Virus record (IMG/VR): IMGVR_UViG_3300033153_005692
Coordinates: 1-33,106 of that record
DNA length: 33,106 nt
Reading direction: 5' to 3' (one strand)
Source of the DNA: a virus
In this document: piece by piece, positions 9,729 through 30,210 of the stretch
How positions within the stretch are numbered: the stretch's first letter is position 1
Layout of the letters: each line of letters starts with the position of its first letter
Translations under genes and position numbers: made by a program
Notes under the pieces: generated by a model
Databases searched by the model: none
Told to the model about the DNA's origin: nothing
Seen by the model: only the letters and a program-made list of their open reading frames with translations

Positions 9729-10069
9729 ATTCTATCAAGCTCCTTTTGTATGTGTTTTTCTACTCTTTTTATAACTGGGCTATATCCGTCTGGGAGCTGC
9801 TCTGAGCCACCCATCTTCATACCATTTTTATAAGGGATTAATCTACGCCCCCCGTCAATAACGATTGAATGGGGAGCAAAATTCCCAACACGCCACACAT
9901 TGAGTTTAATCTTTTTGGGTAATTCCCAAGATGCTTTTAGTTCTCCCTCATCTACAGGTGAAGCCTTGACTACTGCCGAATACATATCTAAAGCACCCGC
10001 AGCCCCTACATCGTTACGCTTGGACAATATAGCGTTGAACTCACTATCTATATCATCTGCGAAAGCCAT
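9725..10069 (-). CDS. HK97 gp10-like head-tail/tail completion protein
   Basis: 114 residues. The stretch MYSAVVKASPVDEGELKASW is the hallmark of HK97 gp10-like proteins (amphipathic helix, then SPVDxGxLxxSW), followed by basic beta strands (KKIKLNVWRVGNFAPHS) and a charged C-terminal helix. It is a small neck protein in related phages. Its start overlaps the stop of the upstream connector gene by one base. Confidence 0.75.
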   Translation of the reverse strand: MAFADDIDSEFNAILSKRNDVGAAGALDMYSAVVKASPVDEGELKASWELPKKIKLNVWRVGNFAPHSIVIDGGRRLIPYKNGMKMGGSEQLPDGYSPVIKRVEKHIQKELDRI

Positions 10070-10416
10070 TATAGCGCCCTTACATTAGCCACATGCAAAA
10101 CAGTAGACTCGTTTACCCCATATTTTGTGACACTTATAATGGCGTATTTTTTACTGTCATATTCGACGGTATCATCTTTGTCTATTGCTGAAATTGTATA
10201 TAGAGGAGCATCACCGATCTCAATCAATCCATCTTTGATGTCTCTTGTTTTATATGTCCCCTCATACACTTTAATGGTGGATTGCACTACTGTTTTGCCA
10301 AGTGCTATGCTGGTTGGGTCGTATGCTCCCTCTGTGGTCGTGTTGAGCGTAGCATCACGTCCAAATTGAGTAATCAGCTTTAAGGCAATATTGGTTAAGG
10401 CTGTATTTAACCCCAT
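10069..10416 (-). CDS. Head-tail connector (stopper-like) protein
   Basis: 115 residues. The N-terminal helix (TALTNIALKLITQFGRDATL) and beta-rich body (VVQSTIKVYEGTYKTRDIKDG, DDTVEYDSKKYAIISVTKYG) match the general look of small head-closure or stopper proteins that follow the adaptor in head-to-tail gene order. Assignment is by order and size. Confidence 0.6.
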   Translation of the reverse strand: MGLNTALTNIALKLITQFGRDATLNTTTEGAYDPTSIALGKTVVQSTIKVYEGTYKTRDIKDGLIEIGDAPLYTISAIDKDDTVEYDSKKYAIISVTKYGVNESTVLHVANVRAL

Positions 10417-22556: not shown

Positions 22557-22900
22557 GTTGTCTCCAGTAGTTTTGGATTTTCGTATATGTTTCCGATTAC
22601 TTCGCATTCATCCATGTTGTCGTGATATTCTAACTCCCCAGCACATCTCTTGAAGTAAAATCCGCTATGGTTGCCTCCTCCTCCATCAAATCCTATATTC
22701 TCACACCATTCAATTACGCCAAAATTTGTAATATCCCCTTCATAAATCTCTACACCGTTTTTGTCTTTGAGTCCTGTGTATTGCATGAGTATCCCACCTC
22801 TATCAATTTCTATTCCTGGTAGTTGCATATCCCAAACATTGAAACTATCTGACATTATTTTCACTTTTTGATGCCACGCTCTAAATTTAATATCTCTCAT
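22553..22900 (-). CDS. YopX-family protein (copy 2)
   Basis: 115 residues: IKFRAWHQKVKIM, MQYTGLKDKNGVEIYEGDI and CEVIGNIYENPKLL are the YopX signature. An excellent AGGAGGAGG ribosome site precedes it. A 57-base core is nearly identical, in inverted orientation, to copy 1. Function unknown; its place in the SSB operon suggests an early/middle role. Confidence 0.85.
   Translation of the reverse strand: MRDIKFRAWHQKVKIMSDSFNVWDMQLPGIEIDRGGILMQYTGLKDKNGVEIYEGDITNFGVIEWCENIGFDGGGGNHSGFYFKRCAGELEYHDNMDECEVIGNIYENPKLLETT
22730..22786 (-). repeat. 57-bp near-identical inverted copy of 13411-13467
   Basis: Matches 13411-13467 on the opposite strand at 54 of 57 positions; see the other copy. Confidence 0.85.
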
Positions 22901-22909
22901 ATCCTCCTC

Positions 22910-23344
22910 CTAAAACGGTATTTCATCTTCGTTGATGTCAATTTCTGGGATGTTAGATGCCTGTGCTTGTTGTGGTGGTGCTTGGTATCCGCTTTGTGGT
23001 TGGTTGGGCTGTTGTGGTGCATCTGCTTTTCTGTCTATGAAGTCGAAACTATGTAGCTTTATGCCTACCTTGCTTCGCTTCTGACCGTCTTTCTCCCAAC
23101 TTTGGTAGTCGAGTTCGCCATCAATCAATATACGGCTTCCTTTGTGAAAGAATTTCTGCAAGTTCTCAGCTGTTTTGCCAAATGCTGTTACGTCAAAGAA
23201 TGAAGCTTTTTCTACATACTGCCCTGACTGATCTTTGTATTTTGAATTGTATACAACGCTGAATGATGCGATACAAGTTCCGCTTTGAGCATATTTTAAC
23301 TCGATGTCTTTCGTAATTGTTGCTAGTAATTGTAGTTTGTTCAT
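22910..23344 (-). CDS. ssb: Single-stranded DNA-binding protein
   Basis: 144 residues. OB fold: MNKLQLLATITKDIELKYAQSGTCIASFSV, then FFDVTAFGKTAENLQKFFHKGSRILIDGELDY and DGQKRSKVGIKLHSFDFID. A Gln/Pro-rich linker (about 112-132) follows, with the acidic tip DINEDEIPF that recruits partner proteins. This is a complete bacterial-type SSB, coating single strands during replication and ERF-driven annealing. It is the second gene behind a leader that may act as a translational switch. Start overlaps the previous stop (TAATG). Confidence 0.95.
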   Translation of the reverse strand: MNKLQLLATITKDIELKYAQSGTCIASFSVVYNSKYKDQSGQYVEKASFFDVTAFGKTAENLQKFFHKGSRILIDGELDYQSWEKDGQKRSKVGIKLHSFDFIDRKADAPQQPNQPQSGYQAPPQQAQASNIPEIDINEDEIPF

Positions 23345-23628
23345 TATGCGTCCTTTTCAATACTGTCTGATTTAAGCGTTTTTATTGTCGCGTCCATACT
23401 CTTTACTATCTCTAGTATGTTTTCGAGACTCAAATGAACAGCGGAGCTCTTAAGCGCATAGTTTAAACTTCTAGTAAGTGCTACTCTTGCATCTCCAAAG
23501 TAGCCTAATATATTTTCACCCTCTTTAAGTACAAGATTATTGCTATCTAGTCTTTCAAGATATATTGTAGCATCCACTTCTACGTCTTTTTTATTTGTTC
23601 TAGTTGTTGTTGGTGTTAGTTGTATCAT
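23344..23628 (-). CDS. Hypothetical first gene of the SSB operon
   Basis: 94 residues; start has a strong AGGAGG site, but that site is inside a 10-bp stem with an upstream anti-Shine-Dalgarno. Sequence: beta-like first half (DVEVDATIYLERLDSNNLVLKEG) and helical second half (LENILEIVKSMDATIKTLK). No family recognised. Being translated just before SSB and under the structured leader, it may be involved in replication or recombination. Confidence 0.65.
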   Translation of the reverse strand: MIQLTPTTTRTNKKDVEVDATIYLERLDSNNLVLKEGENILGYFGDARVALTRSLNYALKSSAVHLSLENILEIVKSMDATIKTLKSDSIEKDA

Positions 23629-23635
23629 GTAGTGA

Positions 23636-23704
23636 CCTCCTAAAGTCTTATGCCTCTTAAAGATGATGTTGTCCTGCTTTAGGAGGAAGAAACAACATCT
23701 TTAA
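23636..23704 (-). promoter_or_regulatory. Pseudoknot-capable leader over the SSB-operon ribosome site
   Basis: Reading 5' to 3' on the minus strand: arm A (23704-23692), arm B (23686-23677, CCTCCTAAAG), arm C (23672-23657), arm D (23645-23636, CTTTAGGAGG). A pairs with C (8 + 5 bp around a 3-base bulge), and B pairs with D perfectly over 10 bp. The order A-B-C-D makes an H-type pseudoknot or two alternative hairpins. D contains the Shine-Dalgarno AGGAGG of the gene starting at 23628, so B-D pairing would hide it. Phage T4 gene 32 (also an SSB) has a pseudoknot in its leader used for autogenous control. Confidence 0.7.
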
Positions 23705-23736
23705 AAGTTCTTTTCGAGATAGTATTTCAACTATCG

Positions 23737-23765
23737 CTTATTGTATTGTACTCTTTTTATGTCAA
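23737..23765 (-). promoter_or_regulatory. Candidate promoter of the SSB operon
   Basis: Perfect -35 TTGACA (23765-23760), 17-base spacer, weak -10 AATAAG (23742-23737). Start of transcription would be near 23730, producing a leader of about 100 nt that begins with a 6-bp hairpin (GATAGT / ACTATC) and holds the pseudoknot. Confidence 0.5.
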
Positions 23766-23823
23766 CATCCCCAACTAATCCACGTTATTTGTGCTTGTTT
23801 GTTGGGAGTGTGTGGATATGTAA

Positions 23824-24615
23824 CTACCCCCTAAAACAGAAACAATTTTTTAACGGCTCTGATGATAGATCAAACAACCCATCTGCTGTATGGTTAAATT
23901 TAAACTCCATGTCTTTCGTAGTTAAATAGTCCATAAAGAAATGTTTGTTTACTATCTTTTCGCCACTATCTTCAAGCCTTTGCAATTCAGCCTCAATCAT
24001 TTTGACCCATTCCCACACTTTCGGATAGTTGTCATAAATAGTTTTCCAAGACTCTTCTGGCTGATAAGGACAATTCATGCACCCAAGCCTAGTAAACTCT
24101 CGATACAATTCATTTTCCATCTCATGCTCTTTTAAGTATATAAGACAATCTGTTTCTGTCATTCCATACTCTTTGAGTGGGTATTTATATTTAAAAAGTT
24201 TGGTGTCTGCTATTGATCTATCTTCACCTTTTGCAAACCCGATATGAAAAGTTACCTCTTGGTTTGGATAGTTTTCTTTTACCCACTCTTCTGCTGGCTT
24301 CTGTTTTGACTCTCGTTTCCAATAGCAGGGGATTGTTATAAGTGGTAGCCCCCTTATCCACCCTTTCCTATCTCCTCTTGTTATCCTTCCAAAAATCCAA
24401 TCTTCAAAAGTTGTGGATGGCTTTAAAGTAATAACCTCTACTCCATATCTATTTTCTAAATATTCATTATAAACTTTTCTATATTTGTGTAGTTTTGGAA
24501 ACTCCCATAGAGTATCACAGAAAATAATATGCGTTATGTTTCTACCATCTCTAATCATCTTGTCAAGCATTACTGTGCTATCTTTGCCGTATGATAGCAT
24601 TACTATATCAATCAT
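23824..24615 (-). CDS. PP-loop ATP pyrophosphatase, phage PAPS reductase-like/DndC-like
   Basis: 263 residues from ATG 24613-24615, preceded by GGAGG (an upstream in-frame ATG at 24630 lacks it). N-terminal PP-loop VMLSYGKDSTVMLDKM (SxGKDS type) binds ATP; THIIFCDTLWEFP is the second strand with Asp. CYWKRESKQKP and GCMNCPYQPEE hold Cys residues (about 120, 190, 193) that could bind zinc or an Fe-S cluster. The FCDT...EFP and CP-containing C-terminus place it with phage phosphoadenosine phosphosulfate reductase-like proteins. Substrate unknown; its neighbour genes suggest DNA modification or sulfur transfer (inference). Confidence 0.75.
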   Translation of the reverse strand: MIDIVMLSYGKDSTVMLDKMIRDGRNITHIIFCDTLWEFPKLHKYRKVYNEYLENRYGVEVITLKPSTTFEDWIFGRITRGDRKGWIRGLPLITIPCYWKRESKQKPAEEWVKENYPNQEVTFHIGFAKGEDRSIADTKLFKYKYPLKEYGMTETDCLIYLKEHEMENELYREFTRLGCMNCPYQPEESWKTIYDNYPKVWEWVKMIEAELQRLEDSGEKIVNKHFFMDYLTTKDMEFKFNHTADGLFDLSSEPLKNCFCFRG

Positions 24616-24695
24616 CTTTGGCCTCCGCACTTCTCACACCAAACATCATCCTTATGATTTCCCTTGTGGAAACATTTGTAACAAGTCCATTTCAT
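24612..24695 (-). CDS. 27-residue zinc-ribbon microprotein
   Basis: MKWTCYKCFHKGNHKDDVWC then EKCGGQR: two C-x2-C knuckles 11 residues apart, a complete tiny zinc ribbon. Start ATG 24693-24695 overlaps the upstream stop (ATGA), and its own stop overlaps the PP-loop start (ATGA). The double coupling argues that it is real and co-produced with the PP-loop protein, which it might assist. Not found as an obvious gene by length cut-offs. Confidence 0.7.
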   Translation of the reverse strand: MKWTCYKCFHKGNHKDDVWCEKCGGQR

Positions 24696-25139
24696 CCCAT
24701 CCCCTTCACTAATCTCTTCACTTTCTTTTGACCACTTGATAACGTGGCATACTTGCTCTTGGCTACATACTTACTCAAAAACAACTGCATCAAACTCTCT
24801 CCAAGTTTATGCTGCTCCGACAACTCAACAATAACCGAACTTCTACCAAGCCCCGAAAGTGCTTTGATCTCTTTATCCGTGAAATACGAATGACCGTCCA
24901 CCACCAAAGATGAAAAAGGCTTTTCGTTCCCAAGTTCGATTTGGTTCTTTATGAATGTCCGGGCTTGTTCCACTTTGTGCGTGAGTTGTTTCGTATTCGA
25001 TACTGTTCTTTTTATCTTCTAGGAATTGATAGAACGCTTCGGTATCTTCTGCGCCTATAAGTGCTTCATCTATTGCTACGGAATGTTGAGCTGAGTTTAG
25101 GTCTAAGCCCATTAGGTTTGCTATTCTAAGTTGTATCAT
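24692..25139 (-). CDS. Hypothetical protein, split by a one-base frameshift
   Basis: ATG 25137-25139 (overlapping the Mom stop) opens a frame that reads MIQLRIANLMGLDLNSAQHS ... EAFYQFLEDKK, then drifts into an unlikely tail (ends 24873). A second frame, open to 24692 and without a good start, reads naturally (TKQLTHKVEQARTFIKNQIE, LSGLGRSSVIVELSEQHKL). Removing one A from the AAAAA run near 25012-25016 joins them into one 148-residue protein whose length is a multiple of three. I take this as one gene with an indel (sequencing, assembly or real). Family not recognised; charged, helical. Confidence 0.6.
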
Positions 25140-25798
25140 TATATAAACTCCATTAGTGTTGTTTTGGTTGGAATGTCTATGCACTCATATCGTCTTGCTT
25201 CACCTTTTGGATATTCCTGTATCTTGTATCTGAATGAGGATAATGCTTCTTTTTTAAATCTTCTTGTACCTGAAATAAATACATACCTATGTTTTCTAGG
25301 TCTATCTTCAAAATACAATCTATCCCCGTATTCTTCTTTTAGCTGAGCGTTTGTTTTCCCGTTCCCATATGTCGCGTGGTGTTGATGTTCAAGTCCTTTT
25401 ACCTTAGGGTCTTTGAATTTAGAACTTAATCCCGTATAGTGAAAATTGCACGCTTGATATATATACCCTATGTGTCCTTGGCTTGTATCTGCATAAGAGA
25501 CTATGATCTTGTCTCCAAGTAATGACATTGAATTTCCAACCAAAAAAGAGGCACTGTTTTTTGTTGCGTTACTATTTATGACAAGCCTATTTAATTCTAC
25601 AACATTGCTTGCAAATTGTTCACCACAAACACCCCTTAAGAGTGTTGAGCTTGCGGGGGTACCATAGGTAACTATACCTATCATTCCCTCATCTGTAAAC
25701 AATCCGAAGGCATAACTTATTGACGGCATACGCTTTGCATAATGCTTTTTAAGAATGAATGGCTTTGCTTTGTCCGTTTTAATTTGTTCAACTTTCAT
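25139..25798 (-). CDS. Mom-family adenine modification protein
   Basis: 219 residues. It opens KPFILKKHYAKRMPSISYAFGLF, followed by TYGTPASSTLLRGVCGEQFASNVVELNRLVI, IIVSYADTSQGHIGYIYQACNFHYTGLSSK, HATYGNGKTNAQLKEEYGD and RPRKHRYVFISGTRRFKKE. This is the pattern of the Mu Mom family (GNAT-like fold), which adds a bulky carbamoyl/acetamido-type group to N6 of adenine and shields phage DNA from many restriction enzymes. No second Com-like activator is obvious, but zinc-knuckle proteins flank it on both sides. It is in the same co-directional run as the PP-loop protein. Confidence 0.85.
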   Translation of the reverse strand: MKVEQIKTDKAKPFILKKHYAKRMPSISYAFGLFTDEGMIGIVTYGTPASSTLLRGVCGEQFASNVVELNRLVINSNATKNSASFLVGNSMSLLGDKIIVSYADTSQGHIGYIYQACNFHYTGLSSKFKDPKVKGLEHQHHATYGNGKTNAQLKEEYGDRLYFEDRPRKHRYVFISGTRRFKKEALSSFRYKIQEYPKGEARRYECIDIPTKTTLMEFI

Positions 25799-28647: not shown

Positions 28648-28920
28648 ACGCGATGGAAAGAAGTAAGTCAAACCTCTTCATTATTGAAACTCGTTTAATA
28701 CTTTAACTTACTCGCGTCACCACTTCACCGAGAGCTTTTACATGAGCCGTCAGTTTTGATTTAACTCCTCCTTTTTCAAAATATCCCTTTCTTTGACGGC
28801 TCTTGTGAGGGCTTTACCTCAAGGTGTGTGACCTTATCACATTAACCAAGCCTATAAATGAGGCTGCTGCTTACCCCCTTTCAAGTATGGGTAGCCTCTT
28901 CATTTATGGCATAAATCTTG
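28648..28920 (+). ncRNA. Long structured leader of the rightward early operon
   Basis: No gene is visible in this stretch of about 280 bases, but it is full of perfect inverted repeats. Stem 1: ACGCG and AGTAAGT (28648-28668) with ACTTACTCGCGT (28706-28717). Stem 2: 28740-28752 with 28794-28806, 12 of 13 bp (GAGCCGTCA / TGACGGCTC core). Small stems: GAGG/CCTC (28807-28820) and AAGGT/ACCTT (about 28821-28835). Stem 3: about 28854-28876 with 28889-28907 in three helices. It precedes the first + gene by about 12 bases. Similar early leaders with paired hairpins act as antitermination RNA in HK022 (put); no sequence likeness is claimed. Confidence 0.6.
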
Positions 28921-28932
28921 AAAGGATTAGAA

Positions 28933-29217
28933 ATGAAAAAAAGAAAGTTTAAAAAACTAATGAATGGTGTTAAAAAAATACAAACATCATTAAAGGTAGG
29001 GCAGACAGTAACAGTAGTCAGATGGAAAAATCCGCTTAGTGATGGAGTAACTTTTGATAAGTCTTGGATAGGAGATGAGCTTGAATTAATGGCTATTGAC
29101 TATCCTTTTGTGAAGGTTAAACTTTCAAGTGTTGGGCTAAAGGGGGATATTAAAACTCTAAGTATGGATCAAGTTGAGTTAAAAATCTTAAATAAAAATT
29201 TTGTGAATATAAAATAA
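28933..29217 (+). CDS. Hypothetical basic protein, first gene of the + early operon
   Basis: 94 residues from ATG 28933 with AAAGGA upstream (a TTG start at 28918 is less likely). N-terminus very basic (KKRKFKKLMNGVKK), then small beta barrel-like SLKVGQTVTVVRWKNPLSDG and ELELMAIDYPFVKVKLSSVG. No family recognised; perhaps nucleic-acid-binding, judging by charge. Confidence 0.65.
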   Translation: MKKRKFKKLMNGVKKIQTSLKVGQTVTVVRWKNPLSDGVTFDKSWIGDELELMAIDYPFVKVKLSSVGLKGDIKTLSMDQVELKILNKNFVNIK

Positions 29218-29455: not shown

Positions 29456-29647
29456 ATGAGTGGATTACCAAAAGAAATTTATGTAGTGGTTGCAGAGAGT
29501 GATTATCCCATAAAAGATAAAAAAGGTGTACCTATTGCTTTTGAGTCAGAGGCATTAGATATTGAGAGTGCTAGGGCTTTTCAAAAAAGAATAGGAACAA
29601 AATATGGAAAGACAGCTATCTATAGAGCTGAGAGGACAAAATCATGA
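29456..29647 (+). CDS. Hypothetical small protein
   Basis: 63 residues after an AGGAGG site: KEIYVVVAESDYPIKDKKGV, IAFESEALDIESARAFQKRI, GKTAIYRAERTKS. The alpha/beta pattern is common to many phage early proteins of unknown role. Overlaps the ERF gene by 4 bases. Confidence 0.6.
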   Translation: MSGLPKEIYVVVAESDYPIKDKKGVPIAFESEALDIESARAFQKRIGTKYGKTAIYRAERTKS

Positions 29648-30210
29648 GCTTATCAAAAATACAAGTAGAGCTAAATGTTCCCAAAAACCAATACAATAAT
29701 TTTGGGAAATACAACTATAGATCACTAGAAGATATTACAGATGCGTTAAAACCCCATTTAAAGGCTTTTAACTACTCTTTAATAGTAAGTGACACCATAG
29801 AAGAGATTGCAGGCAGAATATACGTTAAGGCTACAGCAAACCTATATGATGAAACAATGAAGGTTATCGGAACTGCTACAGCGTTTGCAAGAGAGCCTTT
29901 GGGTAAAAAAGGCATGGATGAGGCACAAATAACAGGTGCCACCTCGTCATACGCTAGAAAATATTGCCTTAATGGATTATTTGCTATTGATGATACAAAA
30001 GACGCAGACAGCCACGACAATACTAAGATAGTTGCTACACCTAAAGCCACACAAGATGATGTGTTGACTATTCAAGGCTTAATCACTCAAACCAATTCAG
30101 ATATAGCGAAATTTCTATCTGTTTATAAAGTGAAAAAGATTGATGAGCTTGACAAAGTGCAAGTAGAGTCGGCAATAACGCTACTCACTAAAAAACTAAA
30201 GGCTTCGTGA
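29644..30210 (+). CDS. erf: ERF-family single-strand annealing recombinase
   Basis: 188 residues. QITGATSSYARKYCLNGLFA (95-114) is the ERF signature (xxTGAxxSYARRYxLxxLF), preceded by NFGKYNYRSLEDITDALKPHL at 19-39 and the beta region KATANLYDETMKVIGTATAFA. Like P22 Erf, it anneals single strands for circularisation or recombination of the genome. The C-terminal tail (about 140-188) is a helical variable domain. It likely works with SSB and NinG in the same genome. Confidence 0.9.
   Translation: MSLSKIQVELNVPKNQYNNFGKYNYRSLEDITDALKPHLKAFNYSLIVSDTIEEIAGRIYVKATANLYDETMKVIGTATAFAREPLGKKGMDEAQITGATSSYARKYCLNGLFAIDDTKDADSHDNTKIVATPKATQDDVLTIQGLITQTNSDIAKFLSVYKVKKIDELDKVQVESAITLLTKKLKAS

Follow-up and report, generated by a model that had tools for sequence, protein, structure and literature searches.

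The mRNA of the phage lambda cIII gene adopts two alternative conformers that control the access of the ribosome. The leader of T4 gene 32 combines an H-type pseudoknot with an unstructured stretch over the Shine-Dalgarno sequence, and in the SAM-III (SMK box) and preQ1-II riboswitches the Shine-Dalgarno strand pairs with an upstream anti-Shine-Dalgarno strand in the OFF state. The lambda N leader and the early RNase III sites of T7 consist of long bulged hairpins, cutting of which can change translation. Finally, a structured element of mobile elements, the STAXI motif (Weinberg et al. 2010, PMC2864571), is a tandemly repeated pseudoknot located close to ssb and to genes for DNA manipulation.

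The DNA studied here, referred to as the window, is a viral stretch of 33,106 nucleotides (IMG/VR record IMGVR_UViG_3300033153_005692), for which an initial annotation had proposed a pseudoknot-like switch over the ribosome site of the ssb operon. Judged by sequence comparison, the element represents a conserved RNA family that Rfam does not contain, in viruses of deep-sea and sulfur-oxidising Campylobacterota. Located in the leaders of early operons of these phages (replication, recombination and ssb), it probably switches translation in cis between two states.

The leader of the ssb operon

On the minus strand, a PAPS-reductase-like gene and the ssb operon flank the leader, which reads, from 5' to 3', P0 hairpin, J, A, L1, B, L2, C, L3, D and ATG. 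The four arms (23707-23636) were found as the initial annotation had described them. Arm A (23690..23707, CTTTTAAAGATGTTGTTT) and arm C (23654..23674, GGACAACATCATCTTTAAGAG) form the 5' and 3' strands of helix P1, which counts 13 bp, or up to 18 when the ends and G-U pairs are included, around a 3-nt bulge in C. Arm B (23677..23686, CCTCCTAAAG), the anti-Shine-Dalgarno, pairs at 10 of 10 positions with arm D (23636..23645, CTTTAGGAGG) to form P2, and the linker L3 (23646..23653, GCATAAGA) connects C to D. D was indeed the Shine-Dalgarno of the first gene of the operon, which starts with the ATG at 23628, encodes 94 aa without a family match (23344..23628) and is followed by ssb (22910..23344; PF00436, phrog_44). 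That arms interleaved in this way are rare by chance also held: a scanner that looked for a bulged A:C helix and, interleaved with it, a B:D helix covering a Shine-Dalgarno scored the window element at 28.6, against at best 22.6 in 530 kb of first-order Markov sequence built from the window.

Two further helices involve the same region. J (23708..23714), the 5' flank of A, pairs in P3 with L1 (23684..23691), which follows A and shares bases with the 3' end of A and the 5' end of B; in this leader P3 is weak (5 bp, AAGAA/TTCTT). The hairpin P4, GACTT[TAGG]AGGTC (23634..23647), forms a weak alternative cover of the Shine-Dalgarno. Upstream lies the 5' hairpin P0, GATAGT[TGAAAT]ACTATC (23718..23735), whose loop is shared with a relative (L002, see below) that has different arms (GTTGGC[TGAAAT]GCCAAC). 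P0 is present in most members but not in all, and the leader of the CII-like operon in phage SNW-1 seems to begin at J. Since GAAA-containing loops occur at this position in several members, P0 may be a fifth functional part of the leader. By consensus resemblance only, TTGACA (23760..23765) is a possible -35 box of a leader promoter, with two TACAAT boxes (23750-23745 and 23745-23740) as -10-like elements; the spacing to the second box, 14, is short.

Upstream of this promoter, a block of about 30 bases (AAGCACAAATAACGTGGATTAGTTGG, 23766-23797, minus strand) is near-identical in three other phages (L029, L017 and L032). Its sequence is better conserved than that of the RNA leader, and it is a possible regulator site. 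The ssb operon is adjoined by the PAPS-reductase-like gene (PF01507, 23824-24630) and a Mom-family DNA-modification gene (PF25680, 25139-25798), both on the minus strand. At 24692-25184 on that strand two overlapping frames (24873-25184 and 24692-24973) take the place of a gene of about 180 aa that is intact in L017 and L010, which looks like a frameshift.

A second copy in the window

The interleaved-helix scanner identified a second leader on the plus strand (28852-28932), in front of an operon that encodes an ERF recombinase. Its parts are J (CCAAGC, 28846..28851), A (28852..28868), L1 (GCTTACCC, 28869..28876), which pairs with J, B (28877..28885), C with a 3-nt bulge (28890..28909), the Shine-Dalgarno arm D (28917..28925) and P4, AATCTT[GAA]AGGATT (28914..28928). 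The first gene of this operon again encodes 94 aa without a family match (28933..29217), and the ERF single-strand annealing protein (PF04404, phrog_155) is encoded at 29644..30210. This copy is near-identical to one of the two copies in L032.

A separate long hairpin is found between the divergent operons (28731-28813, plus strand; AGCTTTTACA..GAGCCGTCA / TGACGGCTC..TGTGAGGGCT), with the pyrimidine-rich loop TTTAACTCCTCCTTTTT. It seems to be carried, with a similar loop, on the minus strand of L031, L028 and L032, in two of which the inner stem differs (GGGGATAGC/GCTATCCCC and GACCCAAGC/GCTTGGGTC). This hairpin could be an origin, an antiterminator or another RNA.

Occurrence and gene context

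The first relative, L002 (IMG/VR contig 3300028534_000010), was obtained with an exact pattern of B and D that did not demand a start codon, and shows the architecture of the window leader with compensating changes. Phage contigs that had been collected by means of the ssb, ERF and A1 proteins and two DNA patterns yielded further copies, as did the sequenced Sulfurimonas phage SNW-1. Altogether 22 leader copies were collected from 18 phages and prophages. The compensatory changes that the initial annotation had suggested looking for were thus found: the 17 phages and prophages other than the window have the same architecture with differing and compensating sequence. Four phages (the window, L032, L128 and SNW-1) carry two copies each, and L002, L005, L009, L010, L017, L029, L031, L074, L121, L138, L155, L166, L171 and L287 one each. 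The copy of L155 and the second copy of L128 are the weakest, and in three (the L032 ssb leader, L171 and L155) a 1x1 mismatch replaces the bulge. Both SNW-1 copies were found by a scan for P1 and P2 only, and carry a P3 of 7 and 6 bp. The phage ssb proteins are closest to those of Sulfurovum and its relatives; copies reside in a contig of a Sulfurovum MAG (L074) and in SNW-1, a prophage of Sulfurimonas indica.

With P1 covariance models, at least one copy (the L128 element) was found in 397 Campylobacteria genomes and at least two clear copies, besides three weaker unconfirmed rows, among 175 Sulfurovaceae; both counts are lower bounds, because these models are narrow and miss divergent members. 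One model, R2, was trained partly on a few doubtful rows. An energy-only duplex scan proved unsuitable as a family finder, as it was swamped by GC-rich matches. The prophages of Helicobacter pullorum and the parts of the Nitratiruptor phages NrS-3 and NrS-4 that were searched gave no clear copy, and a search of the genome contigs with protein A1 gave no match. The first gene of the ssb operon (94 aa) likewise matched nothing when used as a query, because phages exchange the first gene but retain the leader.

Which gene directly follows the leader varies between phages. An ssb gene is present in the downstream run of 11 of the 22 copies (the minus-strand copy of the window, the plus-strand copy of L128, and those of L032, L005, L010, L017, L029, L031, L074, L121 and L287). 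The leader precedes an ERF operon in the window (plus strand) and L032 (minus strand), and the gene directly after ssb in L002 and L009. In L138, L155, L166, L171, L128 (minus strand) and both SNW-1 copies it precedes replication operons with genes for CII-like, winged-helix, DnaB-like or replication proteins. Behind the L002 leader (10027-10300) a 42-aa open reading frame similar to the beginning of a helicase/methylase precedes an out-of-frame piece like a methylase C-terminus, an arrangement that looks like an internal deletion.

This distribution bears on the proposal that SSB is the ligand. As a dedicated ligand SSB was rejected, since half of the copies have no ssb behind them and the leader also stands before ERF, DnaB and CII-like operons; SSB acting in trans stays one candidate. 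Autogenous control after the manner of T4 gene 32, in which SSB would bind its own leader as a P1+P2 pseudoknot and repress translation, agrees with the half of the copies that do precede ssb-containing operons, but not with the operons that lack the gene, nor with the leaders placed in front of the gene after ssb. Moreover, the leader of L287 is typical, although the SSB encoded behind it is far more distant.

The element is always found on the coding strand, D is the Shine-Dalgarno and the register to the start codon is near-constant, the start codon being required by the scanners but not by the pattern that retrieved L002. These properties, together with arms that covary rather than keep their sequence, make it hardly credible that a DNA-level feature (an operator, origin or recombination site) merely resembles RNA arms, despite the location in control regions near promoters. 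An upstream open reading frame starting at an ATG in arm A was discarded, as it is absent in L002.

Covariation of four helices

Across the members the structure is conserved while the sequence barely is. Besides P1 (A:C) and P2 (B:D), it comprises P3, between J (typically AAGAGU) and L1 (ACUCUU), where the apical loop begins, and P4, between the start of D and the spacer after the Shine-Dalgarno. P3 varies in a compensating manner, with AAGAGC/GCUCUU, CGAAGC/GCUUCG, UAAACC/GGUUUA, UCACUC/GAGUGA and UACCAAC/GUUGGUA, and so does P4 (AGUAUC[UGGA]GGUACU, AAAUCU..AGAUUU, AUAUCC..GGAUAU). P3 is weak in both window copies, L121 and L002, and poor in L155.

In 14 of the 16 P1 pairs both partners had changed, and 100% of the cells were paired against 35-58% in slid registers and with 0 of 500 shuffles as good, in N-padded rows of equal length that had been chosen for pairing. 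The same double change was seen in all six pairs of P3, with 84.7% paired in the best register, as chosen by eye, and 28-50% in slid ones (0 of 500 shuffles). When partners were swapped among 15 members, their own partners beat 20,000 of 20,000 permutations for each of the four helices; these members had been gathered on P1 and P2 (L287 also via a P3-based DNA pattern), and P4 had played no part in the gathering. P3 and P4 also exceeded those of 511 background matches (p = 1.5e-9 and 9e-5, respectively). A covariance model of P1 alone recovered the held-out L287 (E 1e-7), L009 (7e-6) and L074 (4e-3) in 1.07 Mb.

J and L1 abut both ends of A with almost no linker, and therefore P3 cannot coexist with A:C; likewise, P4 excludes B:D. 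As all four helices covary, selection maintains both the combination P1+P4 and the combination P3+P2, which describes a bistable element rather than a pseudoknot. Of the original proposal, the switch is thus supported, with four covarying helices over the ribosome site, whereas the pseudoknot is not supported as the working or sole fold. The dimensions point the same way: P1 measures 16-22 bp, about two turns, near the ribosome site in all members whose region energies were computed, and the C-D linker only 4-11 nt. Both the exclusivity, which puts P1 and P2 in different states, and these lengths also argue against the autogenous SSB model. In the window a P1 of as few as 13 bp and a linker of 11 nt do permit a pseudoknot, and one with frayed P1 ends may be sterically possible in the short-P1 members, the window ssb leader included. 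On balance we consider autogenous control unlikely.

A small-molecule riboswitch with an uncharacterised ligand would match the leader position, the sequestration of the Shine-Dalgarno and the alternative helices. However, the leader has hardly any conserved unpaired nucleotides and is attached to DNA-metabolism genes rather than to one metabolic pathway. Within the leader region (22900-24700) no Rfam family, known riboswitches included, matched even at E 5, and none matched at the gathering threshold in the window; ten member loci yielded one tRNA only. Such a riboswitch is therefore very improbable.

Two competing states

In the bistable reading, the state with P1 and P4 would place the Shine-Dalgarno in a small hairpin that ribosomes could open. 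Most members have this state as their energy minimum, and it is expected to form first in transcription; we infer that it is ON or leaky. In the alternative state P3 and P2 would hold A and C apart as loops and lock the Shine-Dalgarno in a helix of 6-13 bp, presumably the OFF state. On this sequence-based assignment the leader would control translation. A transcription attenuator was rejected, as a U-run is missing after P1.

With the helices enforced, most members have the P1 fold as their energy minimum and the P2 state about 1-10 kcal/mol higher; in L128 the P2 state is itself the minimum (P2 and P3 were scored jointly in all but two members). The P4-region folds range from -1.7 to -6.1 kcal/mol and the P2 hairpins from -8.6 to -21.6 kcal/mol. 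Hairpins of around -6 kcal/mol over a ribosome-binding site begin to impair initiation, and by this rule the P4 state would be leaky or open and the P2 state closed. The predicted unpaired fraction of the Shine-Dalgarno is 0.33-0.83 in the P1 state and 0 in the P2 state. Since it is partly paired in both states, ON may be merely "less OFF". In several members with a very stable P1 (L074, L166 and L010) the P2 state is predicted to hold hardly any molecules unless assisted. Folding predictions further indicate that in several members P3 can precede P1 during transcription, and that P1 displaces it once C has been made.

Possible triggers

Pairing is kept while sequence is not, which makes a sequence-specific regulator or a small-molecule pocket unlikely and suggests that the trigger reads shape or strandedness, as SSB-like proteins, RNase III or folding kinetics would. 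It is a tentative possibility that a phage protein binding ssDNA or ssRNA, such as SSB, traps A and C; trapping of these loops by SSB or ERF would flip the RNA to P3+P2. In a still more doubtful extension, one structure-only RNA element would sense free SSB throughout a regulon: an excess of SSB or annealing protein would trap A and C and shut the ssb, recombination, DnaB and CII-like operons together. If so, early gene expression, and perhaps the choice between lysis and lysogeny, would depend on how much ssDNA is present.

RNase III acting on P1 is a rather unlikely trigger. A cut in the P1 duplex (16-22 bp, with its asymmetric bulge or mismatch) would remove B from D, so that P2 could never form, the RNA would be locked open and translation irreversibly switched on. 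The conservation of a long duplex in length and shape but not in sequence fits such a site, as do the location before early operons of temperate phages and the asymmetric bulge, which is typical of single-strand RNase III cuts; cutting alone, taken as the whole explanation, leaves the covariation of P3 and P4 unexplained and is given the same low probability. The remaining probability goes to folding kinetics, temperature or another factor.

Comparison with known systems

Full-text literature searches found no description of the leader element, and the paper on SNW-1 (PMC11290706) mentions neither leaders nor riboswitches. The family thus appears to be undescribed, with unusually clean covariation for two competing folds. 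It spans phages of Sulfurovum, Sulfurimonas and related Campylobacterota, in which post-transcriptional control is little known and several members of which lack Hfq, and it would tie separate operons (for ssb, recombinase, helicase and a CII-like regulator) to one mechanism. It can be tested directly in Sulfurimonas indica, whose completely sequenced prophage SNW-1 carries two copies.

STAXI is the nearest named element near ssb genes, but differs as a tandem pseudoknot, and had no Rfam match here. The SAM-III and preQ1-II riboswitches sequester the Shine-Dalgarno by a similar pairing, whereas the leader has no conserved ligand core or family match. Like the lambda N and early T7 sites, the leader presents a long bulged hairpin before early phage genes; it differs in its extra covarying alternative helices.

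The T4 gene 32 leader also precedes the gene of an ssDNA-binding protein, and a response to SSB is possible in both. The Campylobacterota leader, however, uses alternative pairings in a structured region, its SSB is of the bacterial PF00436 type, and ssb is downstream of only 11 of 22 copies. By these comparisons it does not appear to be a leader of the T4 gene 32 type, and the separate origin that had been proposed is supported.

The closest known kind appears to be the lambda cIII mRNA, which the leader resembles as a phage mRNA with two exclusive folds that differ in ribosome-site access (here P1/P3 and P2/P4, all covarying), and in its association with early regulatory genes of temperate phages. 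In cIII a single gene is concerned, and the fold involves the coding sequence and RNase III binding. The Campylobacterota leader, in contrast, lies wholly upstream of the start codon, consists of four defined helices and recurs in front of several operons.
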